Origin: a virus
Virus record (IMG/VR): IMGVR_UViG_3300035661_000155
Coordinates: 1 to 39,429 of that record
Length of the DNA: 39,429 nt
Reading direction: 5' to 3' (one strand)
The notes under the pieces were generated by a model. That model was not told where the DNA came from. It did not search any database and saw only the letters and a list, made by a program, of their open reading frames with translations. Below are positions 3,732-39,429 of this stretch, one piece after another. The position numbers and the translations under genes are program-made. Every line of letters starts with the position of its first letter. Within the stretch, counting starts at the first letter, position 1.

Positions 3732-6104
3732 TCACCGTACCATGTGCGGCACTCGCATTGCGCGCGCCGGTTCGGGCGGTGCAATGAGTTCTGAAAATGC
3801 TCTCGAAAGGGCATCTATTTGGTCGTCGTTTGTCCCGTTGGGGAACATCCGCATTTCGTTTATCACGCCGTCATTCCAAGGACCGCGCACCATCATCACG
3901 TTGCCGACGTTGATCTGCGCAGCCAGTGGTTCAGCCCGCGTCACCTTGTCGCCCGACTCGGGGGAGGTTGTGACAGGGTAGCCCGCCAGCTTGCGGGTTA
4001 GGTACAGTACCTGCGTTTTACCGGCTTGGCCGGGGTCTTGCGGCAGGCTGATTCGCACCGACTTGCCATCGCGCGAAGCGGTGTTTATCAATGCCGCGTC
4101 GCGTTCGTCTGGCCCACATCGCAGGTGAACCATGTCACCGATAATGAGGCGTCCATCGGGCAATTTGCCTAGCTTCGCGCCGGCCGTATAGTCGCCGTCG
4201 ACCGAGGCGGCCAAGTCCCAGCCGCGAATCCATTTGATTGGTTCAGCGGGCAACGCGTCTATCACGTTGATCGCGTCGGGCTTGATAATCCCTCCTTCCG
4301 GCGGCGCCGGGCGTTGCATGTATTGGCCGGCGAACACATAGGGCGCGGCCTTTTCCATTCTGCGCAAGTCGGTGATAGTGTGTTTTTCCGGCCAGAGCGC
4401 TGTTCCGTCGGCCTGAATTGCGGGCAGGCAGACATGCTCCCATTCCTCGCCGTTGCCGCCATCAAGCAGCCAGCCAGCCAAGTCGCGTTCATGCAGTCGC
4501 TGCATTATTAGGATGATTGGCGTTTCTTTGCTGTTCTTGCGGCTTTCCAGCGTGTTCTGGAACCAATCGATCACGTTCTGCCGCATCACGTCACTGCGGG
4601 CTTCATCTGCCTTGTGAGGATCATCAAGGATAATGCAATTGGATACAATCGCCCCGCTTTGTGCTAGAACAAAATTATGATTCGTTCTCACTTCCAGGCA
4701 GAAGGTAACGTCGACATGTCCGACATCACGAACGAACGCTGGCTTGAAGTAGCCGGCACAGAAGGGCTTTACGAGGTCTCCGACATGGGCAGGGTTCGCA
4801 GGACAACCCCCATGCGCTTGCTCAAACCCAGCAACGACGGCAAGGGCTACCTCCGCGTTAACTTTTCGGTGCGCGGCAAGGTGTCGCATCGATACGTCGC
4901 GCACCTTGTCCTTGAAGCTTTCGTAGGAAGCCGACCAGATGCGAATGAAGCTCGCCACCTTGACGGAAACAGCCGAATAAATGCGCTCACAAACCTCGCG
5001 TGGGGCACAAAGGCCCAGAACATGCAGGATGCCATCAGACACGGCACCTTCCCGCTGCTCGAGCGGAGACCGGGCGCAAGACTTACGCGCGAACAGGCCG
5101 TGGCGATATTCACTAGCATGGACAGCACAGCAAGCATCGCCGCTAGGCACGGCATCTGTACTGGGGTCGTTCGGCAGATCAAGCTGCGCGAGACCTGGGC
5201 TAGCGTTACGGCAGACCTTCCAGATGCCGACTGGCGATACAAGCCAAAACACTCGCCGGATGTAATCGCAGTAGCGATTGACCCAACAAAGACCCGTGCG
5301 CATGCCATGAGCGAAACCGGACTTTCGCTGCACCAGATCAAGCGAATCCGCAAGCTGGCTCGCCTCAATCCATCCGACGCTGGTCAGTAGTTCATGATTC
5401 GGCGTACAGCGAAAGCTGCTACCGTCTGACATACCGACTTCAACAATGTCGTTTCCAGGGTTAGTCCAGAACGTGTCAATCGGCATCAGTTCGGCGACAC
5501 CGGCCTGCTCGTTCCACGACCAGACGCGCACAGGAATCCGCTTTGTCACAATGTCGCCAATAGCGAGCTGGCCGACCTCCGTCTCAATTAGCTGCTCGTA
5601 AGGGAAGCAACCGCCGAAGCCATCGCGGTGCTTTCCGGCGCCGAATCCGGTGATCGTGCCACCAGCGCCGGCGGCGTACATCACGCCGCCTTCAGTGGTC
5701 GTCCAATGGCTTTTTGCGTCCGATGCCAAACGGCAAGCCGGGAAAACTTGGCTGTAAGCCTCGTGCTGCAACAACGAACGCACGTTGGCGCTGTTGTTCA
5801 CGGCCAGCGGTGCGGCGTAGCTCGCGTGGATGAACTCTGCATCCGGCACCTGACCTAGCGCCCAGGCGATGAAATTCACCACCGCGATTTCGGTTTTCGA
5901 GTACCGGGGCGGCATGTTGATGATTAGGCGCTTGCACTCGCCGCGAAACACGCGCATGAGAGCATCACATATGGCTTTGTGGTGCGTACCTCGCAGCCAC
6001 TTGTAGCGGCGGCGCTGAAAGAACATCCAGCGCGAGAAAAAGTACAGGTCTGCCCGCGCCATCCTTGCAGCCGCGAATTGTTCGTCCGGGCTGAATTTGC
6101 GCAT
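3732..6104 (-). CDS. terL: Large terminase subunit, interrupted by an intein
   Basis: ATP-driven DNA packaging motor and headful or site-specific nuclease. The start is ATG 6104, with GAGG seven bases before it; the TTG six bases further upstream has no room for a ribosome site. Numbering from that TTG: Walker A-like NMPPRYSKTE at 65-74, extein join FGG|CIILDDPHK with Walker B at 492-498, an RNase H-type nuclease start RGWDLAAS and a late acidic residue in DDQIDALS. The precursor is 790 aa. Removing the 324-residue intein leaves 466 aa, a normal TerL length. The intein sits between the adenine-binding half and Walker B, the conserved site type that inteins favour. An HNH gene overlaps the intein on the other strand. 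The terS stop lies three bases upstream, so translation is coupled. Confidence 0.93.
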   Translation of the reverse strand: MRKFSPDEQFAAARMARADLYFFSRWMFFQRRRYKWLRGTHHKAICDALMRVFRGECKRLIINMPPRYSKTEIAVVNFIAWALGQVPDAEFIHASYAAPLAVNNSANVRSLLQHEAYSQVFPACRLASDAKSHWTTTEGGVMYAAGAGGTITGFGAGKHRDGFGGCFPYEQLIETEVGQLAIGDIVTKRIPVRVWSWNEQAGVAELMPIDTFWTNPGNDIVEVGMSDGSSFRCTPNHELLTSVGWIEASQLADSLDLVQRKSGFAHGMRTGLCWVNRYCDYIRRVFWLVSPVGIWKVCRNASPGLAQLDLPNDPSTDAVPSGDACCAVHASEYRHGLFARKSCARSPLEQREGAVSDGILHVLGLCAPREVCERIYSAVSVKVASFIRIWSASYESFKDKVRDVSMRHLAAHRKVNAEVALAVVAGFEQAHGGCPANPAHVGDLVKPFCAGYFKPAFVRDVGHVDVTFCLEVRTNHNFVLAQSGAIVSNCIILDDPHKADEARSDVMRQNVIDWFQNTLESRKNSKETPIILIMQRLHERDLAGWLLDGGNGEEWEHVCLPAIQADGTALWPEKHTITDLRRMEKAAPYVFAGQYMQRPAPPEGGIIKPDAINVIDALPAEPIKWIRGWDLAASVDGDYTAGAKLGKLPDGRLIIGDMVHLRCGPDERDAALINTASRDGKSVRISLPQDPGQAGKTQVLYLTRKLAGYPVTTSPESGDKVTRAEPLAAQINVGNVMMVRGPWNDGVINEMRMFPNGTNDDQIDALSRAFSELIAPPEPARAMRVPHMVR
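4638..5609 (-). other. Intein inside the large terminase
   Basis: A protein-splicing element of 324 residues. It begins with Cys (CFPYEQLIETEVGQLAIGD, block A) and has block B CTPNHELLTSVGW about 68 residues in. It ends FCLEVRTNHNFVL...GAIVSN (blocks F and G), followed by extein Cys+1. The termini Cys...Asn|Cys fit standard class 1 splicing. The residue before the final Asn is Ser, where His is usual. Removing it restores FGGCIILDDPHK, a continuous Walker B region. The linker between blocks B and F shows no LAGLIDADG or HNH motif in sense. Instead the antisense strand carries the HNH gene at 4716-5390. Confidence 0.9.
4716..5390 (+). CDS. HNH homing endonuclease (NUMOD4-HNH), antisense within the intein
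   Basis: Probable site-specific nuclease that spreads the intein. The ATG at 4716 (AGAAGG ten bases upstream) gives 224 aa; an earlier ATG at 4677 has no ribosome site. The NUMOD4 motif WLEVAGTEGLYEVSDMGRVR is at 8-27. An HNH_3 module follows, from HRYVAHLVLEAFVG through ARHLDGNSRINALTNLAWGT, with the expected H, N and N. A helix-turn-helix-like C-terminal part (about 130-170, LTREQAVAIFTSM...IAARHGICTGVVRQI) probably binds DNA. The gene fits almost exactly between splicing blocks B and F of the terL intein and runs opposite to it. I see no clear promoter of its own. Confidence 0.88.
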   Translation: MSDITNERWLEVAGTEGLYEVSDMGRVRRTTPMRLLKPSNDGKGYLRVNFSVRGKVSHRYVAHLVLEAFVGSRPDANEARHLDGNSRINALTNLAWGTKAQNMQDAIRHGTFPLLERRPGARLTREQAVAIFTSMDSTASIAARHGICTGVVRQIKLRETWASVTADLPDADWRYKPKHSPDVIAVAIDPTKTRAHAMSETGLSLHQIKRIRKLARLNPSDAGQ

Positions 6105-6106
6105 GT

Positions 6107-6535
6107 TCAAACCTCGTCGGCGATTGCCTTGGCGATCTCCCGGAATTCGTCCTTGGTCATGCTCACGCTTTGGACTGGCCCACCGCCGTTTCCGGACAGT
6201 TCAACACGCTGCGTGTCCCTCCACCCCGCCTGAGATTTCAGCCAGAAAATGACTGAGGCGGTATCGCCTGCAATCGCTTTTTTGTAGAGAGTCTGCGCGA
6301 CAACAACATTAGCTTTGATCTTTCCGGTATCGAGTTCGGCGGCAAAGTTCTTGCGCATCGTCGGTTCACTGATTGGCTTGCCCTTAGCATCTTTGATGAA
6401 TATGCAAATGTCGGAGTGCCGCAGGCCGAATGATGCCAGTTGCAGCACCAGGTCTCGGTGTTCATCGGTCGGCTTGAACATCGTGCGGCCGGCGCCTGGA
6501 CGTTTTCCGCCAGATTTACCCTTAACTCCAGGCAT
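6107..6535 (-). CDS. terS: Small terminase subunit
   Basis: Recognises phage DNA and loads the large terminase. 142 aa. The N-terminus is basic and Gly-rich (MPGVKGKSGGKRPGAGR). It is followed by a helix-turn-helix region (about 24-65, LVLQLASFGLRHSDICIFI) and the family-typical block GDTASVIFWLKSQAGWRDTQ (about 94-113). The C-terminal helix EFREIAKAIADEV probably contacts TerL. GGAG lies upstream of the ATG, and the stop is three bases before the terL ATG. It is the first gene of the late operon. Only a methylase remnant and a terminator lie in front of it. Confidence 0.85.
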   Translation of the reverse strand: MPGVKGKSGGKRPGAGRTMFKPTDEHRDLVLQLASFGLRHSDICIFIKDAKGKPISEPTMRKNFAAELDTGKIKANVVVAQTLYKKAIAGDTASVIFWLKSQAGWRDTQRVELSGNGGGPVQSVSMTKDEFREIAKAIADEV

Positions 6536-6554
6536 TTGTGGTCTCCATGCGCCC

Positions 6555-6670
6555 TTACTCCATCACGGAGAATGCGCGTCCATCATCGTCCAGCGTTGCT
6601 TGCTTTTCGGTGAATTCTTGCCAGCGACGGATGATCACGTCGCAGTATTTCTGGAATAAAAAAACCCGGT
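6555..6670 (-). pseudogene. C-terminal remnant of a DNA methyltransferase
   Basis: The minus-strand frame ending in TAA at 6555-6557 reads YCDVIIRRWQEFTEKQATL followed by DDDGRAFSVME. From family knowledge this is the tail of phage DNA adenine methylases, which follows motif I and the acidic SAM-binding residue (typically ...EIDPKYCDVIIRRWQEFTG...). The open frame has no usable start codon: upstream it runs into a terminator hairpin and a stop near 6733, and motifs I and IV are absent. So it looks like the last ~30 codons of a gene whose body was lost. Intact relatives often lie directly before terS, as this one does. Confidence 0.65.
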
Positions 6671-6798: not shown

Positions 6799-7470
6799 TC
6801 ATACCGCCGACTGGGCAGAACTGGCGTCTGGCTTCATGAACACCAGCCAGTGCGTCAGGCCTTTGCGTCCTGAAATATGGCCGAACAGCGGCTTGACTGG
6901 CGTTAACGCAAGTACTTCTCCGACTTTAATTTGCGTTTCGTTCCACTTGAAGACAAGCGTCCCATCGGGGTGCAGAACGCGGAAACACTCGGCAAAGCCC
7001 TTGCGCAAGTCGTCTCGCCAGTTGTCCGATAGTTTTCCGTACTTCGCGGCCATCCAGCTTTTCGGGCCTGCCGTGCGAAGGTGCGGAGGATCGAACGCAA
7101 TCAATTTGAAAGCCCCATCCTGGTACGGTAGCGCCCTGAAATCCAGCAGCGTGTCCGGCTCAATCCGCAGCGTTCGCGTACCGTTTTCGCTCCCGTTCGA
7201 GCGGTCGGTGACAACGATAGTCTCGCTGCGCTGGTCGCCGAATATGGTGTCCGGGTGCTTCCTATCAAGCCACATCATCCGGCTACCGCAACATGGGTCT
7301 AGCACTCGCGGAATGCAGCTACTGTAGCAAGGGTCGAGCACCGCCGGGAATGTCGGCGCCGGAGACGCGGCGACCCCTAACGCGGCGGTCAAGTCGGACA
7401 GGCCGCCGGCGCTGTTATTTTGAGTTTGTGTGTTATGCGGCCTGCCGCTTACCTCTACGTTAGCCGCCAC
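6799..7470 (-). CDS. SAM-dependent methyltransferase (DPPH family)
   Basis: Class I methyltransferase, substrate unknown (DNA, a nucleotide or a small molecule). The motif I-like VLDPCCGSRMMW is followed by a stretch around FGDQRSE, and motif IV is IAFDPPHL. The C-terminal part CFRVLHPDGTLVFKWNETQI is characteristic of a conserved phage family, usually near 180 aa, that starts just before motif I. The longest frame starts at GTG 7470 without a ribosome site, overlapping the previous stop by 11 bases. Its first ~35 codons run through an attC-like palindrome (7374-7466), so GTG 7341 (180 aa) or GTG 7305 (168 aa) may be the true start. Motif I is partly duplicated in tandem (VLDPCYSS then VLDPCCGS, 36 bases apart). 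It is the last gene of a three-gene operon. Confidence 0.8.
   Translation of the reverse strand: MAANVEVSGRPHNTQTQNNSAGGLSDLTAALGVAASPAPTFPAVLDPCYSSCIPRVLDPCCGSRMMWLDRKHPDTIFGDQRSETIVVTDRSNGSENGTRTLRIEPDTLLDFRALPYQDGAFKLIAFDPPHLRTAGPKSWMAAKYGKLSDNWRDDLRKGFAECFRVLHPDGTLVFKWNETQIKVGEVLALTPVKPLFGHISGRKGLTHWLVFMKPDASSAQSAV
7374..7466 (-). repeat. attC-like recombination site (site A)
   Basis: On the minus strand R'' GGCTAAC opens the site and R' GTTAGGG closes it. Inside, GGTAAG pairs with CTTGACC leaving one unpaired G, and CAGGCCGC pairs perfectly with GCGGCCTG around a loop of about 30 bases. This is the layout of an integron attC site: R'', L'', loop, L' with an extrahelical base, R'. The TAA stop of the 56-aa gene lies in R'', as in gene cassettes. 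The first 14 bases after R'' (AACGTAGAGGTAAG) are identical to site B at 21419-21508 on the other strand. The last base of R' deviates from GTTRRRY. Confidence 0.65.
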
Positions 7471-7630
7471 GTTTCGCGGCCTTGTCTCGTTTCCGACGCA
7501 ACTTCTCGGCGGCCTCTTTTACCGCTCCGTGGTCGCCTGGGTGTACCCATAGTTCCAGGCGGGTAAAGCCTTCGGCCTGGCGGCGCTTGCGTAGCGCAGC
7601 CATCCTTTCGGTGGCGGGCTTGGCGGTCAT
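7460..7630 (-). CDS. Small basic protein, unknown function
   Basis: 56 aa from the ATG at 7630, which overlaps the previous stop as ATGA, so translation is coupled. The sequence is highly charged (MTAKPATERMAALRKRRQAE...). A central LELWVHPGDHGAVKEAAEKL resembles a ribbon-helix-helix or other small DNA-binding fold with a long basic C-terminal helix (KLRRKRDKAAKR). Function is not recognised. A longer frame to 7762 exists, but it overlaps the upstream gene. Its TAA stop sits in the R'' box of attC-like site A. Confidence 0.6.
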   Translation of the reverse strand: MTAKPATERMAALRKRRQAEGFTRLELWVHPGDHGAVKEAAEKLRRKRDKAAKRGG

Positions 7631-9160: not shown

Positions 9161-9448
9161 ATGATTGGAAAACACGTACTTGTCCGCACCCGCAGCGCTG
9201 GCGTTCATGTTGGCACCCTGAAATCCAAGGACGGCAAAGAAGTCGTCCTAACCGACTCCCGCCGTATTTGGTACTGGGACGGCGCGGCAACAATTAGCCA
9301 GCTAGCAATAGATGGCACGAGCAAGCCGGAGAACGGCAAGTTCCCGGCGGCGGTCCCGGAAATCCTCCTTACGGAGGCAATTGAAATAATCCCCTTAACC
9401 CAAAAGGCGCGAGATTCAATCGCGGGGGTGAAAGAATGGAAACTGTAA
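9161..9448 (+). CDS. DUF6948-like conserved phage protein
   Basis: 95 aa, ATG preceded by GGAG. It reads MIGKHVLVRTRSAGVHVGTL, then RRIWYWDGAATISQLA and a TEAIEIIPLT stretch. From memory of the family this is the DUF6948 pattern (GK.VLVRT.SAGVH.GTL, RR.WYW.GA..LS.LA..GTS.P, LTEA.EI.P). Such genes are small phage proteins of unknown role. They often lie next to short Gly-rich repeat genes, as here. It is the first gene of the operon behind the strong promoter at 9101, and its stop overlaps the start of the next gene. Confidence 0.75.
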   Translation: MIGKHVLVRTRSAGVHVGTLKSKDGKEVVLTDSRRIWYWDGAATISQLAIDGTSKPENGKFPAAVPEILLTEAIEIIPLTQKARDSIAGVKEWKL

Positions 9449-9528
9449 ACGGATACTGCGACGGCTCTGGCTCGCGCTCGGGCGACGGATCGGGCTCGGG
9501 CTACAGAGACGGCTCGGGCATCGGCTAA
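9436..9528 (+). CDS. Small Gly-Ser repeat peptide (first copy)
   Basis: 30 aa (METVNGYCDGSGSRSGDGSG...), starting inside the end of the previous gene in another frame. It is built almost entirely of GSG/DGSG units encoded by GGCTCG and GGATCG hexamers, and closely resembles the 76-aa protein downstream. Function unknown. It is probably a short relict or paralogue of that protein. Confidence 0.5.
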   Translation: METVNGYCDGSGSRSGDGSGSGYRDGSGIG

Positions 9529-9584
9529 AACAGGAGAAGAAGCATGAACAAGACGAACAAAATGAGCGGGGTGGCAGTATGAGC
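9523..9584 (+). repeat. Imperfect direct repeat, copy 1 (leader module)
   Basis: This ~62-base module reads GGCTAAAACA, an AGGAGAAG ribosome site, a 12-codon leader and GGTGGCAGTATGAGC. It is repeated at 9804-9865 with a few substitutions. The two copies bracket the 76-aa Gly-Ser gene, which suggests a segmental duplication. Confidence 0.65.
9544..9582 (+). CDS. 12-aa leader peptide, copy 1
   Basis: MNKTNKMSGVAV, with GGAGAAGAAGC before the ATG. Its TGA overlaps the ATG of the Gly-Ser gene as ATGA. It is probably a translational-coupling leader. The second copy at 9825 has the same design. Confidence 0.45.
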   Translation: MNKTNKMSGVAV

Positions 9585-9809
9585 TGCTACGACGGCTCGG
9601 ACTACGGATACGGCGACGGATCGGGAGACGGATCGGGCTCGGTCTCGGGATCGGGCTCGGGATCGGGGTCGGGATCTGGATACGGCTCGGGATCGGGCCG
9701 AGGCTCGGGCTCTGGCTCCGTCTACGGCTCTGGATACGGCTCCGTCGATGGCTCGGGCTCGGGCTGCGGCTCAGGATCCTTCGACGGATACGGCTCGGGC
9801 TGCGGCTAA
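9579..9809 (+). CDS. Gly-Ser repeat protein
   Basis: 76 aa (MSCYDGSDYGYGDGSGDGSG, then almost pure GSGSG with scattered Y, D, V and C). The DNA is a degenerate hexamer array of GGCTCG and GGATCG units. Length changes by slipped-strand mispairing are therefore likely. Low-complexity proteins of this kind sit beside DUF6948-like genes in several phages; their role is unknown. Four Cys and repeated Tyr suggest a flexible, possibly aggregating polymer. It starts by ATGA overlap with the leader peptide. Confidence 0.6.
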   Translation: MSCYDGSDYGYGDGSGDGSGSVSGSGSGSGSGSGYGSGSGRGSGSGSVYGSGYGSVDGSGSGCGSGSFDGYGSGCG

Positions 9810-9865
9810 AACAAGGAGAAGCAAATGAACCAAGTGAACCAAGTGAGAGAGGTGGCAGTATGAGC
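9804..9865 (+). repeat. Imperfect direct repeat, copy 2 (leader module)
   Basis: Second copy of the module at 9523-9584. It has the same order of GGCTAAAACA, an AAGGAGAAG ribosome site, a 12-codon leader and GGTGGCAGTATGAGC. Confidence 0.65.
9825..9863 (+). CDS. 12-aa leader peptide, copy 2
   Basis: MNQVNQVREVAV, with AAGGAG upstream and ATGA overlap with the next gene at 9860. It matches the leader at 9544 in length and C-terminus (VAV). Confidence 0.45.
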   Translation: MNQVNQVREVAV

Positions 9866-14839: not shown

Positions 14840-15398
14840 CCGGCTATTCGCCAGGCTAAGCGCGATGTATGGCGCCAAGTTCGTGGCGGCGTGGGAAGGC
14901 TTCGATTTATCCGGCGTGAAGTCGGTTTGGATGGAAGACCTGGCCGAGTTCACCCCAGCAGAAATCGCGGCCGGCGTGAACGCCTGCAAGACGCGCGAAT
15001 GGCCGCCTTCACTACCCGAATTCATCCGCCTATGCCGCCCGAGCATCGACTACGAGCGCGCGTTCCACGATGCTTGCGACCAGATGCGCCGGCGCGAACG
15101 TGGCGAGGATTCGTGGCCGTCCGCAGCGATCTACTGGGCCGCTGTCGGCCTCGGACGCGACCTTATCGAGCGCCCTTATGCCGACCTTCGCGCACGGTGG
15201 GCGAAGGCCATGGACGACGCGGTTGCGGCAATCAGGGCGGGCAGTACGCCAGACTTCGTCCCGGCTAGGGCGGCCGCACTCCCAGCACCGGGCAAAGCAA
15301 CGCCGGATCGCGAAACCGTGCAGGCGAATCTCGACAGGATCAAGGCGATGGTCGGGCTCGTCGCTGAGTCGAAAATCGCCTCCCGCGACGCGGCATGA
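14775..15398 (+). CDS. Replication protein P-like (helicase loader)
   Basis: 207 aa. GGAG lies seven bases before the ATG, and the gene overlaps the previous one by 65 bases. The core (about 15-110) contains AKFVAAWEGFDLSGVKSVWM and the family-typical NACKTREWPPSLPEFIRLCR, a pattern I know from phage replication P or helicase-loader-like proteins. No Walker motif is present. The C-terminal helix (about 175-200) is charged. Position after the DUF1376 initiator supports a role in loading the host helicase. Confidence 0.7.
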   Translation: MENRTVVHFRQLSTAKQCEWIDRLFARLSAMYGAKFVAAWEGFDLSGVKSVWMEDLAEFTPAEIAAGVNACKTREWPPSLPEFIRLCRPSIDYERAFHDACDQMRRRERGEDSWPSAAIYWAAVGLGRDLIERPYADLRARWAKAMDDAVAAIRAGSTPDFVPARAAALPAPGKATPDRETVQANLDRIKAMVGLVAESKIASRDAA

Positions 15399-15404
15399 GC
15401 GGCA

Positions 15405-15605
15405 ATGTGCGGATCGAAACCGTGCGAGAATCCGAACTGCACCTGGAGCGAAGCGCACAAGCTGGCGTGCCTGGCACGCGCAGTGGTGAAGCTACCGGGC
15501 CTGGAAGTGCGGCGGGAATGGCTCAAGAAGTTCAGGGCCCGGCACGGGGACGCGGCGACGGACAAACTGGAGCGGGAGATCAAGGCGCAATGGGCAAGTC
15601 GATAA
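15405..15605 (+). CDS. Small conserved Cys-containing phage protein
   Basis: 66 aa, MCGSKPCENPNCTWSEAHKL then LACLARAVVKLPGLEVRREW. Four Cys near the N-terminus (C2, C7, C12, C22) plus His18 could bind a metal ion. The rest is a charged helix. Similar small proteins precede rusA in many proteobacterial phages (family knowledge). It overlaps the rusA start by 16 bases in another frame, so the two are coupled. Role unknown. Confidence 0.65.
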   Translation: MCGSKPCENPNCTWSEAHKLACLARAVVKLPGLEVRREWLKKFRARHGDAATDKLEREIKAQWASR

Positions 15606-16045
15606 AACTCACCTTGCCGCCGGCTATTTCGGCAAATCGGTACTGGAGAAGCTTTGTCCCGCGTGGCCACCGCCGCGCCATCGTGGTTGTTTCCGATGAG
15701 GCAAAAGCCTTCAAGTCACAGGTCGTGTTGATCGCCAAACAGGCCGGCATCTACACTCCGTTTTCCGGCCGCGTGCAGGTTGATTGCCAGCTCTACCCGG
15801 CCTTGCCGAAAGACGCTGCGAGCAGGATTCGGCGGCGCGGCGATGGTTGGGACGACGACGTGCGCAGCGTCGACCTCGACAATGCGTTGAAGGTAATGAT
15901 CGACGCGCTCAAGGGCATCGCCTACGAGGACGATAAGCAGGTGTGGCGCATCAACGCAGAACGCATGGAGCCGACAGGCGAGGCGCGCCTGGTTGTGACT
16001 ATCACGCCGATCGCCACTAACTCGCCGCAGGCACGATTGGTCTGA
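15590..16045 (+). CDS. rusA: RusA-type Holliday junction resolvase
   Basis: Cuts four-way junctions so that replicated or recombined DNA can be packaged. 151 aa from ATG 15590; the longer frame from 15395 overlaps two genes and reads as low-complexity sequence. The start is MGKSIKLTLPPAISANRYWR. The catalytic region is DDDVRSVDLDNALKVMIDAL followed by KGIAYEDDKQ, holding the conserved Asp residues of the RusA fold. TGATG overlap with the next gene. Confidence 0.9.
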   Translation: MGKSIKLTLPPAISANRYWRSFVPRGHRRAIVVVSDEAKAFKSQVVLIAKQAGIYTPFSGRVQVDCQLYPALPKDAASRIRRRGDGWDDDVRSVDLDNALKVMIDALKGIAYEDDKQVWRINAERMEPTGEARLVVTITPIATNSPQARLV

Positions 16046-16245
16046 TGGCGATCGATTCTTACCGATACCGGGACCCGCTCGAGGTACTTATCGCCAAAGA
16101 GTCCAGGACGTGCAAAGGCTGCGCGCACGAGGTCTGCGCCGAATTCAGAATAGGCGGACAGAAGCGGGTTTACAAATCGTGCAGCAAATCCCGGAAGCAC
16201 GGTCGGCGTTGCCGGCAATACCTAAATCCAACGGAGACGCAATGA
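16045..16245 (+). CDS. Small zinc-ribbon-like phage protein
   Basis: 66 aa, MAIDSYRYRDPLEVLIAKES then CKGCAHEVC...C...KHGRRCRQY. The arrangement CxxC...C and a later C, with a basic C-terminus, suggests a metal-stabilised nucleic-acid-binding protein. It belongs to a family I recognise as common between rusA and the late regulator in phages, but its function is not known. TGATG and ATGA overlaps with both neighbours. Confidence 0.65.
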   Translation: MAIDSYRYRDPLEVLIAKESRTCKGCAHEVCAEFRIGGQKRVYKSCSKSRKHGRRCRQYLNPTETQ

Positions 16246-19154: not shown

Positions 19155-19781
19155 ATGGCTGAGAAAGTAGTGATCGGGAATTGCGAACTGGTGTGGATTT
19201 ACGCGCTGTGCGATCCCGTCACCAATGCGCCGCGCTATGTCGGCAAGACATCGAAGCCGTTGCTGCAACGGCTGAAAGAGCACAAGCGGCTTGCCAGGCG
19301 CAAGCGCAGGCTTCCGGTTCAGCGGTGGATGAATTCCGTTGATGGCGTGAATATCTGCGGGGCGTACATGCGCGTCCTTGAAGCCGCAAATGTCAGTAAT
19401 TGGGCCGAACGCGAACGGCATTGGATTGACTACGGAAGGCGCACCGGATGGGATTTATTCAACCTGACCGATGGCGGCGACGGCTTTCATGGTTTGGTTA
19501 AGTCTCATGAGCATGTTGCGAAGATAGCGGAATCCCTGAAGAAAGGAGCGATGTTCGCTTGCCAGTGCGGGGCGCAGTTTTGGCGCAAGCCGTCGGCCAT
19601 TGCAGCAGGCGAGGCGAAGTTTTGTTCCCGCGCCTGCTATCAAGAGTGGCAGAAAGGCAAGCCGAAGGCGATACCGAAAGGTGGCATCCCTTGGAACAAA
19701 GGCCGTCCGTGGTCAGACGACGAACGTAAGAAGATCAGCGAAGGGAAGAAGATCAGCGAAGGGAAGCGCCATGCCGTTTGA
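19155..19781 (+). CDS. GIY-YIG endonuclease with zinc finger and NUMOD3-like tail
   Basis: Probable homing-type or restriction-type DNA endonuclease. 208 aa from ATG 19155 (AAGGA five bases upstream; ATG 19149 abuts it). The GIY-YIG core is [20 protein letters not shown] (about 13-32), followed by LLQRLKEH and a Glu-bearing helix [11 protein letters not shown] Cys cluster [12 protein letters not shown]...FCSRAC (about 138-165) probably forms a zinc finger. The C-terminus [20 protein letters not shown] is a NUMOD3-type DNA-binding motif. A tandem repeat [12 protein letters not shown] stands at the end. It overlaps the methyltransferase start by 11 bases. Confidence 0.82.
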
Positions 19782-20487
19782 TGAAGTCATGATAGGTGAC
19801 TGCCGCCTGATACACGGCGACTGTCGCGATGTACTGCCGCTGCTGCCCGATTTTGATTTGGTGCTGACCGACCCGCCATATGGGATTGCGCTAAACACTG
19901 ACAATAGCCGCTTTTCGGGTGGCAACACGGCCCATGTTACAAAGCGCAGCAAAAACGTCGGTTCGGCGGGAGGTCGCCCTATTGTCGGGGATGATGCGGA
20001 CTTTGATCCGTCGTTCCTGCTCGGACTATCCGGCGACAAGATCATTTGGGGGTGGAACAACTATCCAGACCGATTGCCGCGCGGTGCGTGTCTGGTGTGG
20101 CTTAAGCGAAACGACGCCGCGTTCGGTTCGTTCCTGTCAGATGCCGAACTTGCGTGGATGAGCAAGGGACATGGCGTCTATTGTCGCCGCGACCTATCAA
20201 ACGCCGCTATCACAAACGACCGCGCGCATCCTACGCAAAAGCCGGTGACGCTAATGGAGTGGTGCTTGGGGTTTGTTCCAAAAGCCAAGACCGTCCTTGA
20301 CCCTTTCATGGGCAGCGGGAGCACTGGCGTCGCTTGTGTGCAAACCGGGCGTCATTTTGTCGGTGTGGAAATCGACCGCGCGTACTTTGACATCGCATGC
20401 AGGCGCATTGAAGACGCACAACGGCAAGGAAAGATGTTTGAAGCACCATCTCCACCAAAGCCAGAGCAACATAACCTTTTGGTCTAA
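19771..20487 (+). CDS. DNA methyltransferase (N6-adenine or N4-cytosine)
   Basis: Modifies phage DNA, probably protecting it from restriction or from the adjacent GIY-YIG nuclease. 238 aa. The catalytic [13 protein letters not shown] (DPPY at 34-37) comes before the SAM-binding [15 protein letters not shown] (175-189) and [10 protein letters not shown]. This order and size fit the beta-class N6/N4 methylase family. The region [14 protein letters not shown] (153-166) is the usual family link. The target-recognition region is short (about 45-140). The ATG overlaps the end of the nuclease gene, so the pair is co-translated. The TAA is inside the R'' box of attC-like site C. Confidence 0.9.
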
Positions 20488-20539
20488 CGCGGAAATAACC
20501 GGCGGCTGAAAGCCGTCCGCGTTGATTGACGGGTTAGTG
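20482..20539 (+). repeat. attC-like site C
   Basis: R'' is GTCTAAC (20482-20488, matches RYYYAAC) and contains the methylase stop. R' is GTTAGTG (20533-20539). CTAAC pairs with GTTAG. AAC-CGG pairs with CCG-CGTT, leaving one unpaired base. CGGCT pairs with AGCCG around a GAA loop. Unequal spacers (8 and 10 bases) give the unpaired central spacer typical of attC. Confidence 0.6.
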
Positions 20540-20569
20540 GTTGAATTACTACGACGAAAGGATTTTGAC

Positions 20570-20791
20570 ATGATTGACGCAACAGAACTTCCAGATGGAT
20601 TTTATAACCTACGATGCCCGAGAGTTCCAGAGTCTGAAACTTGTTTGGTGCGCCTGTACACACCACACGATCCGCCAGTTCGCGGAATTGGTTTCGGTGT
20701 ATGGGATGGTGGCGCATTCATGCCACTGGCCGACATTACCGATGATTCGCGGCTGACACCACTGACGATCACGGAAACCCCTAACGCATAG
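20570..20791 (+). CDS. Cassette gene 1: small protein, unknown
   Basis: 73 aa, ATG with AAAGGA upstream. It begins MIDATELPDGFYNLRCPRVP, beta-rich, with FGVWDGGAFMPLADITDDSR in the middle. No domain is recognised. It starts 31 bases after the R' box of site C and ends inside site E, so it forms a single-gene cassette-like unit. It has no promoter of its own. Confidence 0.6.
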   Translation: MIDATELPDGFYNLRCPRVPESETCLVRLYTPHDPPVRGIGFGVWDGGAFMPLADITDDSRLTPLTITETPNA

Positions 20792-20840
20792 ATAATGGGC
20801 GCCCGTTTTTTGGCGAGGCCGCTTGCACGCTGGGTTGCGG
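20779..20840 (+). repeat. attC-like site E
   Basis: R'' CCCTAAC (20779-20785) and R' GTTGCGG (20834-20840) pair at five of seven positions. Between them GGC-GCC pairs with GGC..GCC across a T-rich loop. The stop of cassette gene 1 is in the first 13 bases. Confidence 0.45.
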
Positions 20841-20859
20841 CACTTTTTTGGAGACGGAC

Positions 20860-21093
20860 ATGGAAGACGGAACGATGGTTTATGTGGCGGCCGACATGGC
20901 CCAGCCGGGCGCGGCATGGGCGGCTTGCGTGGATGATCCGCGACGGGCGAAGGACACGGCGAAGGATATTGCCGGATGGGTGCGCAATGGTGCAGCCGTG
21001 ATGCGGGTGACGCCGGAAGTGGCCCGAGAAATGATGGCGAAGTGGGTGCAGCCCGAGAAAAAGCAGAAGGCAAAAAAGGCGGCGCCGCTGTGA
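20860..21093 (+). CDS. Cassette gene 2: small protein, unknown
   Basis: 77 aa from ATG 20860 with GGAG six bases upstream (a TTG at 20848 is less likely). It reads MEDGTMVYVAADMAQPGAAW then DPRRAKDTAKDIAGWVRNGA and ends in a Lys-rich tail (EKKQKAKKAAPL). The central alpha/beta pattern with AAVMRVTPEVAREMMAKWV resembles small phage proteins of unknown role. The gene lies between attC-like sites E and D, and its TGA is directly before the R'' of site D. Confidence 0.6.
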   Translation: MEDGTMVYVAADMAQPGAAWAACVDDPRRAKDTAKDIAGWVRNGAAVMRVTPEVAREMMAKWVQPEKKQKAKKAAPL

Positions 21094-21094
21094 C

Positions 21095-21149
21095 GCACAA
21101 CGCAGAAACAGGGGCGGAGAAGCCGTCCAGCTTGATTGATTTGTTTGGC
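21095..21149 (+). repeat. attC-like site D
   Basis: R'' GCACAAC (21095-21101) and R' GTTTGGC (21143-21149) pair at five of seven positions. GG-C-GG pairs with CC-G-T-CC around the loop AGAAG. It directly follows the stop of cassette gene 2. Confidence 0.5.
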
Positions 21150-21189
21150 ATGGATTTTTATATCACAAGCATTTTCAAGGAGTTACAAA

Positions 21190-21429
21190 ATGATTGAAAT
21201 TCAATTACCAGATCGGCCAAAGCCGGTAGATTGCGAGTCTCTTCCGTTCGACGCTTACAGCGGAATGCAGATGATGGCGTATGGCAGAGCGTGCGCCGAT
21301 GCGCAAAAACTAGCCGATGAAAATGCCGAGATTAAGAGATTGCGCGAGGCTTTGGAGAAGATTGAATGCGAGCCGATCAATGCCGAATACCTTGCACGGG
21401 CCGCACTCGATGATGTGGGCACAACGTAG
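21190..21429 (+). CDS. Cassette gene 3: small helical protein, unknown
   Basis: 79 aa with a strong AAGGAG seven bases before the ATG. It begins MIEIQLPDRPKPVDCESLPF. The second half is a coiled coil (DAQKLADENAEIKRLREALE). Similar 'EIKRLREALE' proteins are common in phage accessory regions and are of unknown function. Its TAG lies inside the R'' region of site B. Confidence 0.6.
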   Translation: MIEIQLPDRPKPVDCESLPFDAYSGMQMMAYGRACADAQKLADENAEIKRLREALEKIECEPINAEYLARAALDDVGTT

Positions 21430-21508
21430 AGGTAAGGGGCGCGAGTGATGAACCAACCACGAAGTGAACCCGGCTCTTCGCGCGTCCCGCTTGACCCGCT
21501 TGTTGGGC
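21419..21508 (+). repeat. attC-like site B
   Basis: The clearest plus-strand site, 90 bases. R'' is GCACAAC (21419-21425). R' is GTTGGGC (21502-21508, fits GTTRRRY), and the two pair at six of seven positions. GGT-AAG pairs with CTT-G-ACC, leaving an extrahelical G. GGG pairs with CCC and CGCGA with TCGCG around a long loop. It shares AACGTAGAGGTAAG and the same extrahelical-base arrangement with site A on the minus strand at 7374-7466. Confidence 0.7.
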
Positions 21509-21522
21509 TTGAGGCGGCCGAC

Positions 21523-21831
21523 ATGGACATTACCGACCGGCTGCACGGATACGCAATGCTGGACAAGGGCATGACGCCCGAATCATTGGCGATGGCCGAG
21601 GCCCGAGACGAGATCGTTGGATTGCGCAGGATAGCTGCCGCGCAGCGCGATCTGATTACCTCCCTGGAGCGAGTGGCGAACGTTTCAATAACCGCCCTGG
21701 CCGAACGGGCCACGAACGTTTTTGACGTGGCAGAGATAGATCGGAAGCTAAAAACACTGGCGGCGGCAAAGGTGGGATGTATGACGCCTAACGATATGCT
21801 CGAGGGGCGCAACGTGACTGGCAGAGAGTAA
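21523..21831 (+). CDS. Cassette gene 4: small phage protein, unknown
   Basis: 102 aa from ATG 21523, with GAGG eight bases upstream. A longer frame from 21445 would translate the attC-like site itself, so I prefer the start just after its R' box. It reads MDITDRLHGYAMLDKGMTPE then SLAMAEARDEIVGLRRIAAA, a pattern (DI.DRL......EA.DEI..LR) frequent in small phage proteins. The rest is helical. It is the last plus-strand gene and converges with the spanin gene. Confidence 0.6.
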   Translation: MDITDRLHGYAMLDKGMTPESLAMAEARDEIVGLRRIAAAQRDLITSLERVANVSITALAERATNVFDVAEIDRKLKTLAAAKVGCMTPNDMLEGRNVTGRE

Positions 21832-38923: not shown

Positions 38924-39429
38924 TCACGCTGCATGCTCGATCACCACCGCACGCTTGTAGTAAGTCTGCGAAGCGGTCGGGATGATGGACGAGGTGGCGG
39001 TCGCGTCGGTCGGGGCCGTGAAGCCACCAATCCAGAACCAAGACTGAGCGATGATTTGTTGCAAGCGGTCAATCGGAGCGCGAACAACCTGCACCACATC
39101 ATCCATCGTCTGAACGATGCTGTTGACACCAGAGGCGTCCATAGCGCGCTGTTCCATACCTGCGAAGTCGCCTTCCACAAGAGCACCGGGAGCGCACAGG
39201 ACGGGGCGACGCACACCGGCAGTAACGCCAGTGTTGGCCGGCTGGTACGGCGCTTCAGTGGTCGGGATGAAATTGCATCCGAGAAGCTGGAACACCTTGC
39301 CAACGCGCATTTCCTGCGAGCCGTACTGACCTTGGTACATCAGCTTGAAGTCGTTGTCCGCCCACAACTGACGCATCGACATGTTGTCGAGGTACAGGTT
39401 GAACGTCACCGAATCCATGCCGGTGTTGT
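38924..39429 (-). CDS. Major capsid protein, C-terminal part (joins 1-992)
   Basis: This is the same gene as at 1-992, separated only by the contig break. Bases 39303-39429 duplicate 1-127. The C-terminal 125 or so residues after the duplicated part include KVFQLLGCNFIPTTEAPYQP, GVRRPVLCAPGALVEGDFAG and the end YYKRAVVIEHAA. An internal ATG at 39418 is not a true start, because the frame is open upstream across the circle. In the closed genome the gene is 1,371 bp (456 aa). Confidence 0.85.
   Translation of the reverse strand, partial: NTGMDSVTFNLYLDNMSMRQLWADNDFKLMYQGQYGSQEMRVGKVFQLLGCNFIPTTEAPYQPANTGVTAGVRRPVLCAPGALVEGDFAGMEQRAMDASGVNSIVQTMDDVVQVVRAPIDRLQQIIAQSWFWIGGFTAPTDATATSSIIPTASQTYYKRAVVIEHAA
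39303..39429. repeat. Contig-end direct repeat, right copy
   Basis: Identical to bases 1-127. See the left copy for interpretation. Confidence 0.9.

Follow-up and report, generated by a model that had tools for sequence, protein, structure and literature searches.

The palindrome at 7375-7465 of the window (the whole stretch of 39,429 nucleotides that was analysed, an IMG/VR virus record) is an integron-type attC, and we propose, with a probability of about 0.78, that it heads a reversed cassette of the phage type, a unit that, read in gene sense, would consist of the attC (7465 to 7375) followed by a DNA methyltransferase gene running to 6799. Integrons are regarded as a bacterial gene-collecting route and reports of them in phages are rare. 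We show here, for the window and for most of the viral loci sampled, that phage attC generally point opposite to the genes beside them.

The window is circular, via an identical 127-nt end repeat (1-127 equals 39303-39429), and its terminase, portal and tail sheath genes make it the genome of a contractile-tailed phage. Megablast of positions 1-25000 against cultured phages gave 0 matches; the closest portal proteins among cultured phages are those of the Komagataeibacter phages phiKX1/phiKX2 (43%), and the portal protein of a relative, L089, is 94% identical to that of the window. An Rfam scan of the whole window found no family. The large terminase frame (3732-6110, minus strand) is interrupted in frame, after GFGG, by about 320 aa that end HNFVLAQSGAIVSN and are missing in L089; this insert has the look of a Walker B-region intein. 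Elsewhere, at 9436-9809, two short Gly/Ser/Tyr/Asp-repeat ORFs with similar flanks (9544-9584 and 9825-9865) form a duplicated low-complexity gene.

The canonical (top) strand of the attC is the plus strand, on which we find the R'' box CCCTAAC (7375-7381), the L'' box GGTCAAG (7387-7393, with an extrahelical C at 7390), the L' box CTTACC (7448-7453) and the R' box GTTAGCC (7459-7465). The minus strand, from 7465 to 7375, reads GGCTAAC-GTAGA-GGTAAG-CGG-CAGGCCGC ... GCGGCCTG-TCCGA-CTTGACC-GCCGC-GTTAGGG. L'' and L' pair (GGT-C-AAG with CTTACC; on the minus strand GGTAAG with CTTGACC, leaving one extrahelical G), the spacers to the R boxes are 5 and 5 nt, and a perfect inner stem of 8 bp joins 7399-7406 to 7437-7444. 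The minus strand is the recombinogenic (bottom) strand and also the gene-sense strand; as ssDNA it folds to exactly the attC structure (-18.9 kcal/mol, z -2.3), and crossover is predicted between 7460 and 7459, at G|TT of R', the bond on which the breakpoints of cassettes shared by other phages fall. Compared with the consensus RYYYAAC/GTTRRRY, the AAC/GTT cores and inner positions of the R boxes fit and one outer position per box is off (C for R); the outer two base pairs between these boxes are mismatched. Neither the L boxes nor the extrahelical base nor the inner stem is damaged, and the score equals those of sites in live arrays. The original prediction had described such a palindrome, with these boxes, the extrahelical G and the 8-bp stem, and a covariance search, which it had called for, now gives 39.2 bits.

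That score comes from a covariance model (R1) which we built for the present analysis, and which is neither HattCI nor IntegronFinder, from 44 bacterial attC, all in normal orientation, taken from chromosomal arrays (of Betaproteobacteria and relatives) and from class 1 plasmid integrons (aadA, catB3, aadB; loci L168-L171). It matched 7375-7465 on the plus strand (E 1.2e-7, R1 E-values being rough) and reported no match there on the minus strand. With a second, PWM scorer the site reached 47, and 332 kb of shuffled sequence yielded no score of 18 or above. These two methods had taken the place of a hand-made box score that was too permissive on shuffled sequence. Across 146 distinct phage attC, pairing in the L-box helix reaches 96.7% and 8/8 pairs have changed on both sides; the alignment was model-fitted and so is biased in the model's favour.

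An attC is asymmetric: its extrahelical base and L-box letters distinguish the top from the bottom strand. Bacterial arrays such as L177, which has an intI, show the strand ending CTTACCTCTAC-GTTRRRY leading into the start of the next gene. This canonical strand is plus at 7375-7465, where both flanking genes are on the minus strand, and minus at 20482-21508, where the genes are on the plus strand, so that the neighbours of the window's attC divide 8 opposite to 0 same. The arrangement at 7375-7465 is therefore not that of a bacterial cassette, in which a gene in top-strand sense is followed by its attC. The same reversal extended to 121 IMG/VR viral loci with 499 attC (uncurated contigs, with genes called by our own hexamer gene finder), where 920 neighbouring genes were opposite and 23 in the same direction, and where the majority of neighbours was opposite to the attC in 118 of the 121; a bacterial integron control gave 97 neighbours in the same direction and 27 opposite. 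Viral loci with attC on both strands mostly obey the reversal (17 opposite and 0 same in L262; a tie in L254). L250 was the only viral pattern locus with both attC neighbours in ordinary polarity, beside the tied L254 and L259, which had no gene neighbour. Among published phages PH101 (with its annotated genes) and MW202573 are reversed by the present scoring and TJE1 is ordinary.

Selection bias was considered as the source of the reversal and rejected: the search patterns are blind to gene strand, the same motif shows the normal polarity in bacteria, and three viral loci fetched solely because they encode the methyltransferase agree (9 opposite, 0 same). An origin of the reversal in plasmid or host DNA is disfavoured, as 11 of 20 tested records had a portal, terminase or capsid match over the cut-off.

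If the attC is reversed, crossover should fall at the edge that faces the upstream stop (RYYTAA|C in gene sense). Viral loci were compared all-against-all for shared cassettes, and cassettes common to different viral contigs were found in L193/L228 (99.5% over 394 nt), L244/L298 (98% over 572 nt) and L244/L280 (99.7% over 299 nt); in each of these pairs the flanks are mostly unrelated and both cassette ends sit on the RYYTAA|C edge. Counting matches of at least 90% identity, we found 21 ends no more than 12 nt from that edge in the two partners alike; the other edge had 0. The position of these ends indicates that the mobile unit is an attC plus the gene downstream of it. In the original prediction the site at 7375-7465 closed the upstream 56-aa gene as its 3' attC; the extrahelical base, the box sequences and the exchange breakpoints make it instead the 5' attC of the methyltransferase. 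What was right is that the 56-aa gene (7460-7630, minus strand; a weak match to a phage transcription-regulator family) stops in the R box, at TAA 7462-7460.

The order of the phage unit is thus attC (often with an RBS and start codon in its loop), gene, and a TAA stop lying in the attC that follows. In 201/456 cases the R-box TAA is itself the stop codon of the upstream gene. Short sites (about 60 nt) have the start 20-40 nt downstream, and long sites (about 90-120 nt) have it inside the loop: 197 of 295 long loops have a Shine-Dalgarno-like motif with a start codon, compared with 16/295 on the reverse strand. The bottom strands of bacterial attC are Shine-Dalgarno-like too (26 of 57), so the loop motif alone is no proof of selection in phages; from the outset, a bottom strand rich in purines may have lent itself to carrying translation signals. 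The cargo, sampled as 108 cassette proteins, includes several kinds of DNA methyltransferase, Mom, Lar restriction alleviation, Acb2/Tad1, RNA ligase and many unassigned proteins.

The SAM-dependent DNA methyltransferase frame of the window (6799-7470, minus strand; phrog_954) is open across the entire attC, and its conserved protein extends from about residue 53 (7312) to 6799. Because the first codons of this frame are palindrome, a mis-set gene start had been suggested. In favour of this, non-cassette homologues of the METHYLTRANSFERASE start past the palindrome, at a point that matches about residue 53 of the window frame and lies some 3 codons ahead of the VLDPCCG motif; against it, cassette homologues of the same family, which lie behind different attC in L005, L014, L017 and MW202573, start inside the attC with the frame open across R' (the attC of L014 and L017 score just 17 by our own scorer). 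As these homologues read through their attC, an open frame through the palindrome is normal for the family, and the methyltransferase is itself a recurrent cassette cargo. The window leader NNSAGGLSDLTAALG resembles that of L005 (TNAAGGQSVLTDGLG). No in-frame ATG, GTG or TTG is present in the loop of the 7375-7465 attC, and the candidate starts are a TTG in the L box, a GTG near 7344 and the GTG at 7470. At 7308-7364 (minus strand) an imperfect self-copy precedes the conserved methyltransferase start (VLDPCYSSCIPR|VLDPCCGSR), as if by short tandem duplication.

At its other end, the methyltransferase gene of L005, L035 and L068 runs into an attC R box or is succeeded by one (ATGAAGCCCAAC). This R box has been lost in the window (KPD instead of KPN), which leaves its unit without a second attC; a covariance scan of the window found none 3' of the methyltransferase. 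The close relatives L088 and L089 are without the cassette, and L089 has at this position, upstream of terS, a whole ParB-like/DNA-methylase gene, the 3' end of which persists in the window at 6541-6654 (minus strand), ahead of the terminase small subunit (6107-6535, minus strand; phrog_309), the next gene after the methyltransferase. Because of this remnant, replacement is likely to have taken place at the methyltransferase locus instead of clean insertion. The remnant, which carries no attC, marks the far edge of the replaced stretch, an edge that did not arise by attC recombination. Relatives lacking the methyltransferase with a clean junction, for which the original prediction had suggested a search, were not found, the position in L089 being occupied by the other gene.

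The site at 7375-7465 stands alone, 13 kb from a cluster at 20482-21508. There, with canonical strand minus and genes plus, we find an attC at 21419-21508 (R1 40.9 bits), in whose loop the following gene has its start (GTG at 21445 or ATG at 21448), and an attC of the short type at 20482-20539 (34.7 bits), in whose R box the N6/N4 methylase gene at 19771-20487 stops. Immediately 5' of this methylase is a homing-endonuclease-like gene (19155-19781). Two degenerate attC-like sites lie between, both on the minus strand, at 20779-20840 (R1 13.6 bits; PWM scorer 22.8) and 21095-21149 (R1 15.8 bits), and the small ORFs called in this second array on the plus strand (20571-20791, 20860-21093, 21190-21429 and 21448-21831) have no assigned function. 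Six attC-like sites had been counted in the window, of which only three are statistically solid by R1 score. A 14-bp core shared between 7375-7465 and a site on the opposite strand had also been claimed, and AACGTAGAGGTAAG does occur exactly twice in the window, at 7448-7461 (minus) and 21423-21436 (plus); even when up to 2 mismatches are allowed, a shuffled window is expected to contain this 14-mer 0.04 times. The 20482-21508 cluster, where two sites are solid and two degenerate, is a CALIN (at least 2 attC within a few kb, no intI); the window is not a complete integron, having no TIGR02249 match and hence no intI with an attI.

An integron integrase was thus not found in the window by TIGR02249, and host integrases are the likely source for most phage attC. 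One of 19 other phage records tested encodes a full IntI (IMGVR_UViG_3300032093_000278, 420 bits), and this record also carries portal and HK97 capsid genes. Its intI (L324 5630-6718, which is contig 15129-16217) adjoins an array of reversed cassettes, in which the attC have the position and orientation towards intI of a normal integron and the genes alone are turned; a look for an attI at 15,058-15,129 of the contig gave no clear site. The same attC core is found in integrons of Thiobacillus, Sideroxydans, Rhodocyclales and Hydrogenophaga (Betaproteobacteria/Hydrogenophilales), and this occurrence suggests betaproteobacterial hosts for these phages. A common cassette source, proposed in the original prediction, is in keeping with this: bacterial integrons and many phages have this attC family, and a cassette pool shared between them is likely.

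Considering how the unit could have moved, we propose that the minus (gene-sense) strand would be folded, and exchanged between A7460 and C7459 right after the TAA of the 56-aa gene, by an integron integrase that came from the host or from a different phage. Units that begin with their attC bring their own stop, RBS and start signals in phages, so that swaps between phage genomes can spare the neighbouring genes, and the methyltransferase would shield phage DNA from host restriction. We infer all three of IntI action on 7375-7465, continued activity of the site and the counter-restriction role. The window copy may well be fixed or decaying, because the loop start codon has been lost and there is no second attC after the methyltransferase.

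That last point leads to a variant of our preferred explanation, with which it may share its origin: a formerly mobile reversed cassette whose attC is now inactive, having persisted by chance or because it forms the 5' end of the methyltransferase message. We consider such a relic quite conceivable, at a little under even odds, given the loop without a start codon, the mismatched outer R-box pairs, the KPD ending, the lack of a partner attC downstream and the lack of an intI in the genome; the intact L boxes, extrahelical base and inner stem, and a score that matches live-array sites, weigh against it. It is improbable that the site is the 3' end of an ordinary cassette of normal polarity holding the 56-aa gene, with the methyltransferase as the next cassette. 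A stop inside the R box is indeed common in integron cassettes, but the strand-specific model scores only the plus strand at 7375-7465, and the breakpoints of phage cassettes shared recently are at the edge of the attC towards the upstream stop and not at the opposite edge.

We think it similarly doubtful that these palindromes are kept for a purpose other than recombination, as translation or transcription signals that combine stop, RBS and start in a single hairpin. Most long-site loops do hold a start codon and Shine-Dalgarno, but this would leave unexplained why the L boxes, both R cores and the extrahelical base are conserved, and why different viral contigs have cassettes that are 98-99.7% identical and sharply bounded by attC; IntI is present in one such phage. 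GC-rich DNA has many long inverted repeats, which would speak for a chance palindrome or terminator unrelated to integrons; this reading is refuted by an E of about 1e-7, by 0 comparable matches in the 332 kb of shuffled sequence, and by a 14-bp core common to the genome's two sites, other phages and bacterial integrons.

Returning to the reversed cassette, we lean, with some reserve, towards a wider hypothesis: that phages share their own pool of attC cassettes of reversed polarity, each unit being an attC with RBS and start in its loop, a gene and a TAA, swapped by integron integrases (some phage-encoded) and carrying much counter-defence cargo. Reversal would keep such units out of the host's expressed cassettes and would make the recombinogenic strand the coding strand. 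IntI selectivity for the attC bottom strand normally makes cassettes enter facing Pc, and an attC bottom strand on the lagging template raises excision (PMC11023631). We hypothesise that in reversed units the recombinogenic strand is both the coding strand and, where replication is co-directional with transcription, the lagging template, and that this may be a reason for the reversal.

If the reversal is true, phages run a parallel cassette economy with its own grammar and the same recombination sites, in which restriction-evading and anti-defence genes could pass between unrelated phages in one step. It would explain how an attC can lie within an operon without breaking it, and would correct the start-codon calls of attC-led genes; comparing the extrahelical-base strand with the gene strand would also give a simple rule for spotting cassettes in viral metagenomes.

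In the open-access literature we found no earlier report of reversed phage attC, attC-borne starts, exchange boundaries or such abundance, and the sole related paper was that of Qi et al. 2023 (PMC9892861). In that paper, attC are described in phages (TJE1, P12002L, PH101 and MW202573), including methyltransferase cargo; 17 CALINs are counted in 10,705 phage genomes, with arrays called typical integron structure; and IntI1 recombined 5 of 6 virulent-phage attC tested, including sites of phage PH101. Like those phages, the window has attC without intI and a DNA methyltransferase as cargo, that of MW202573 being of the same family; beyond what we found in that text, we describe the reversal, the attC-borne starts, the exchange boundaries and the abundance in IMG/VR. 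The window's sites resemble those of betaproteobacterial sedentary chromosomal integrons (for example L177, with intI) in attC core (AACGTAGAGGTAAG ... CTTGACC), box spacing and extrahelical base, but in those integrons the genes are the other way round to the attC, starting just after R', and large arrays lie beside intI. Similarly, the attC architecture is that of mobile class 1 cassettes (the aadA, catB3 and aadB attC of L168-L171), which differ in being plasmid-borne, of normal polarity and expressed from Pc.
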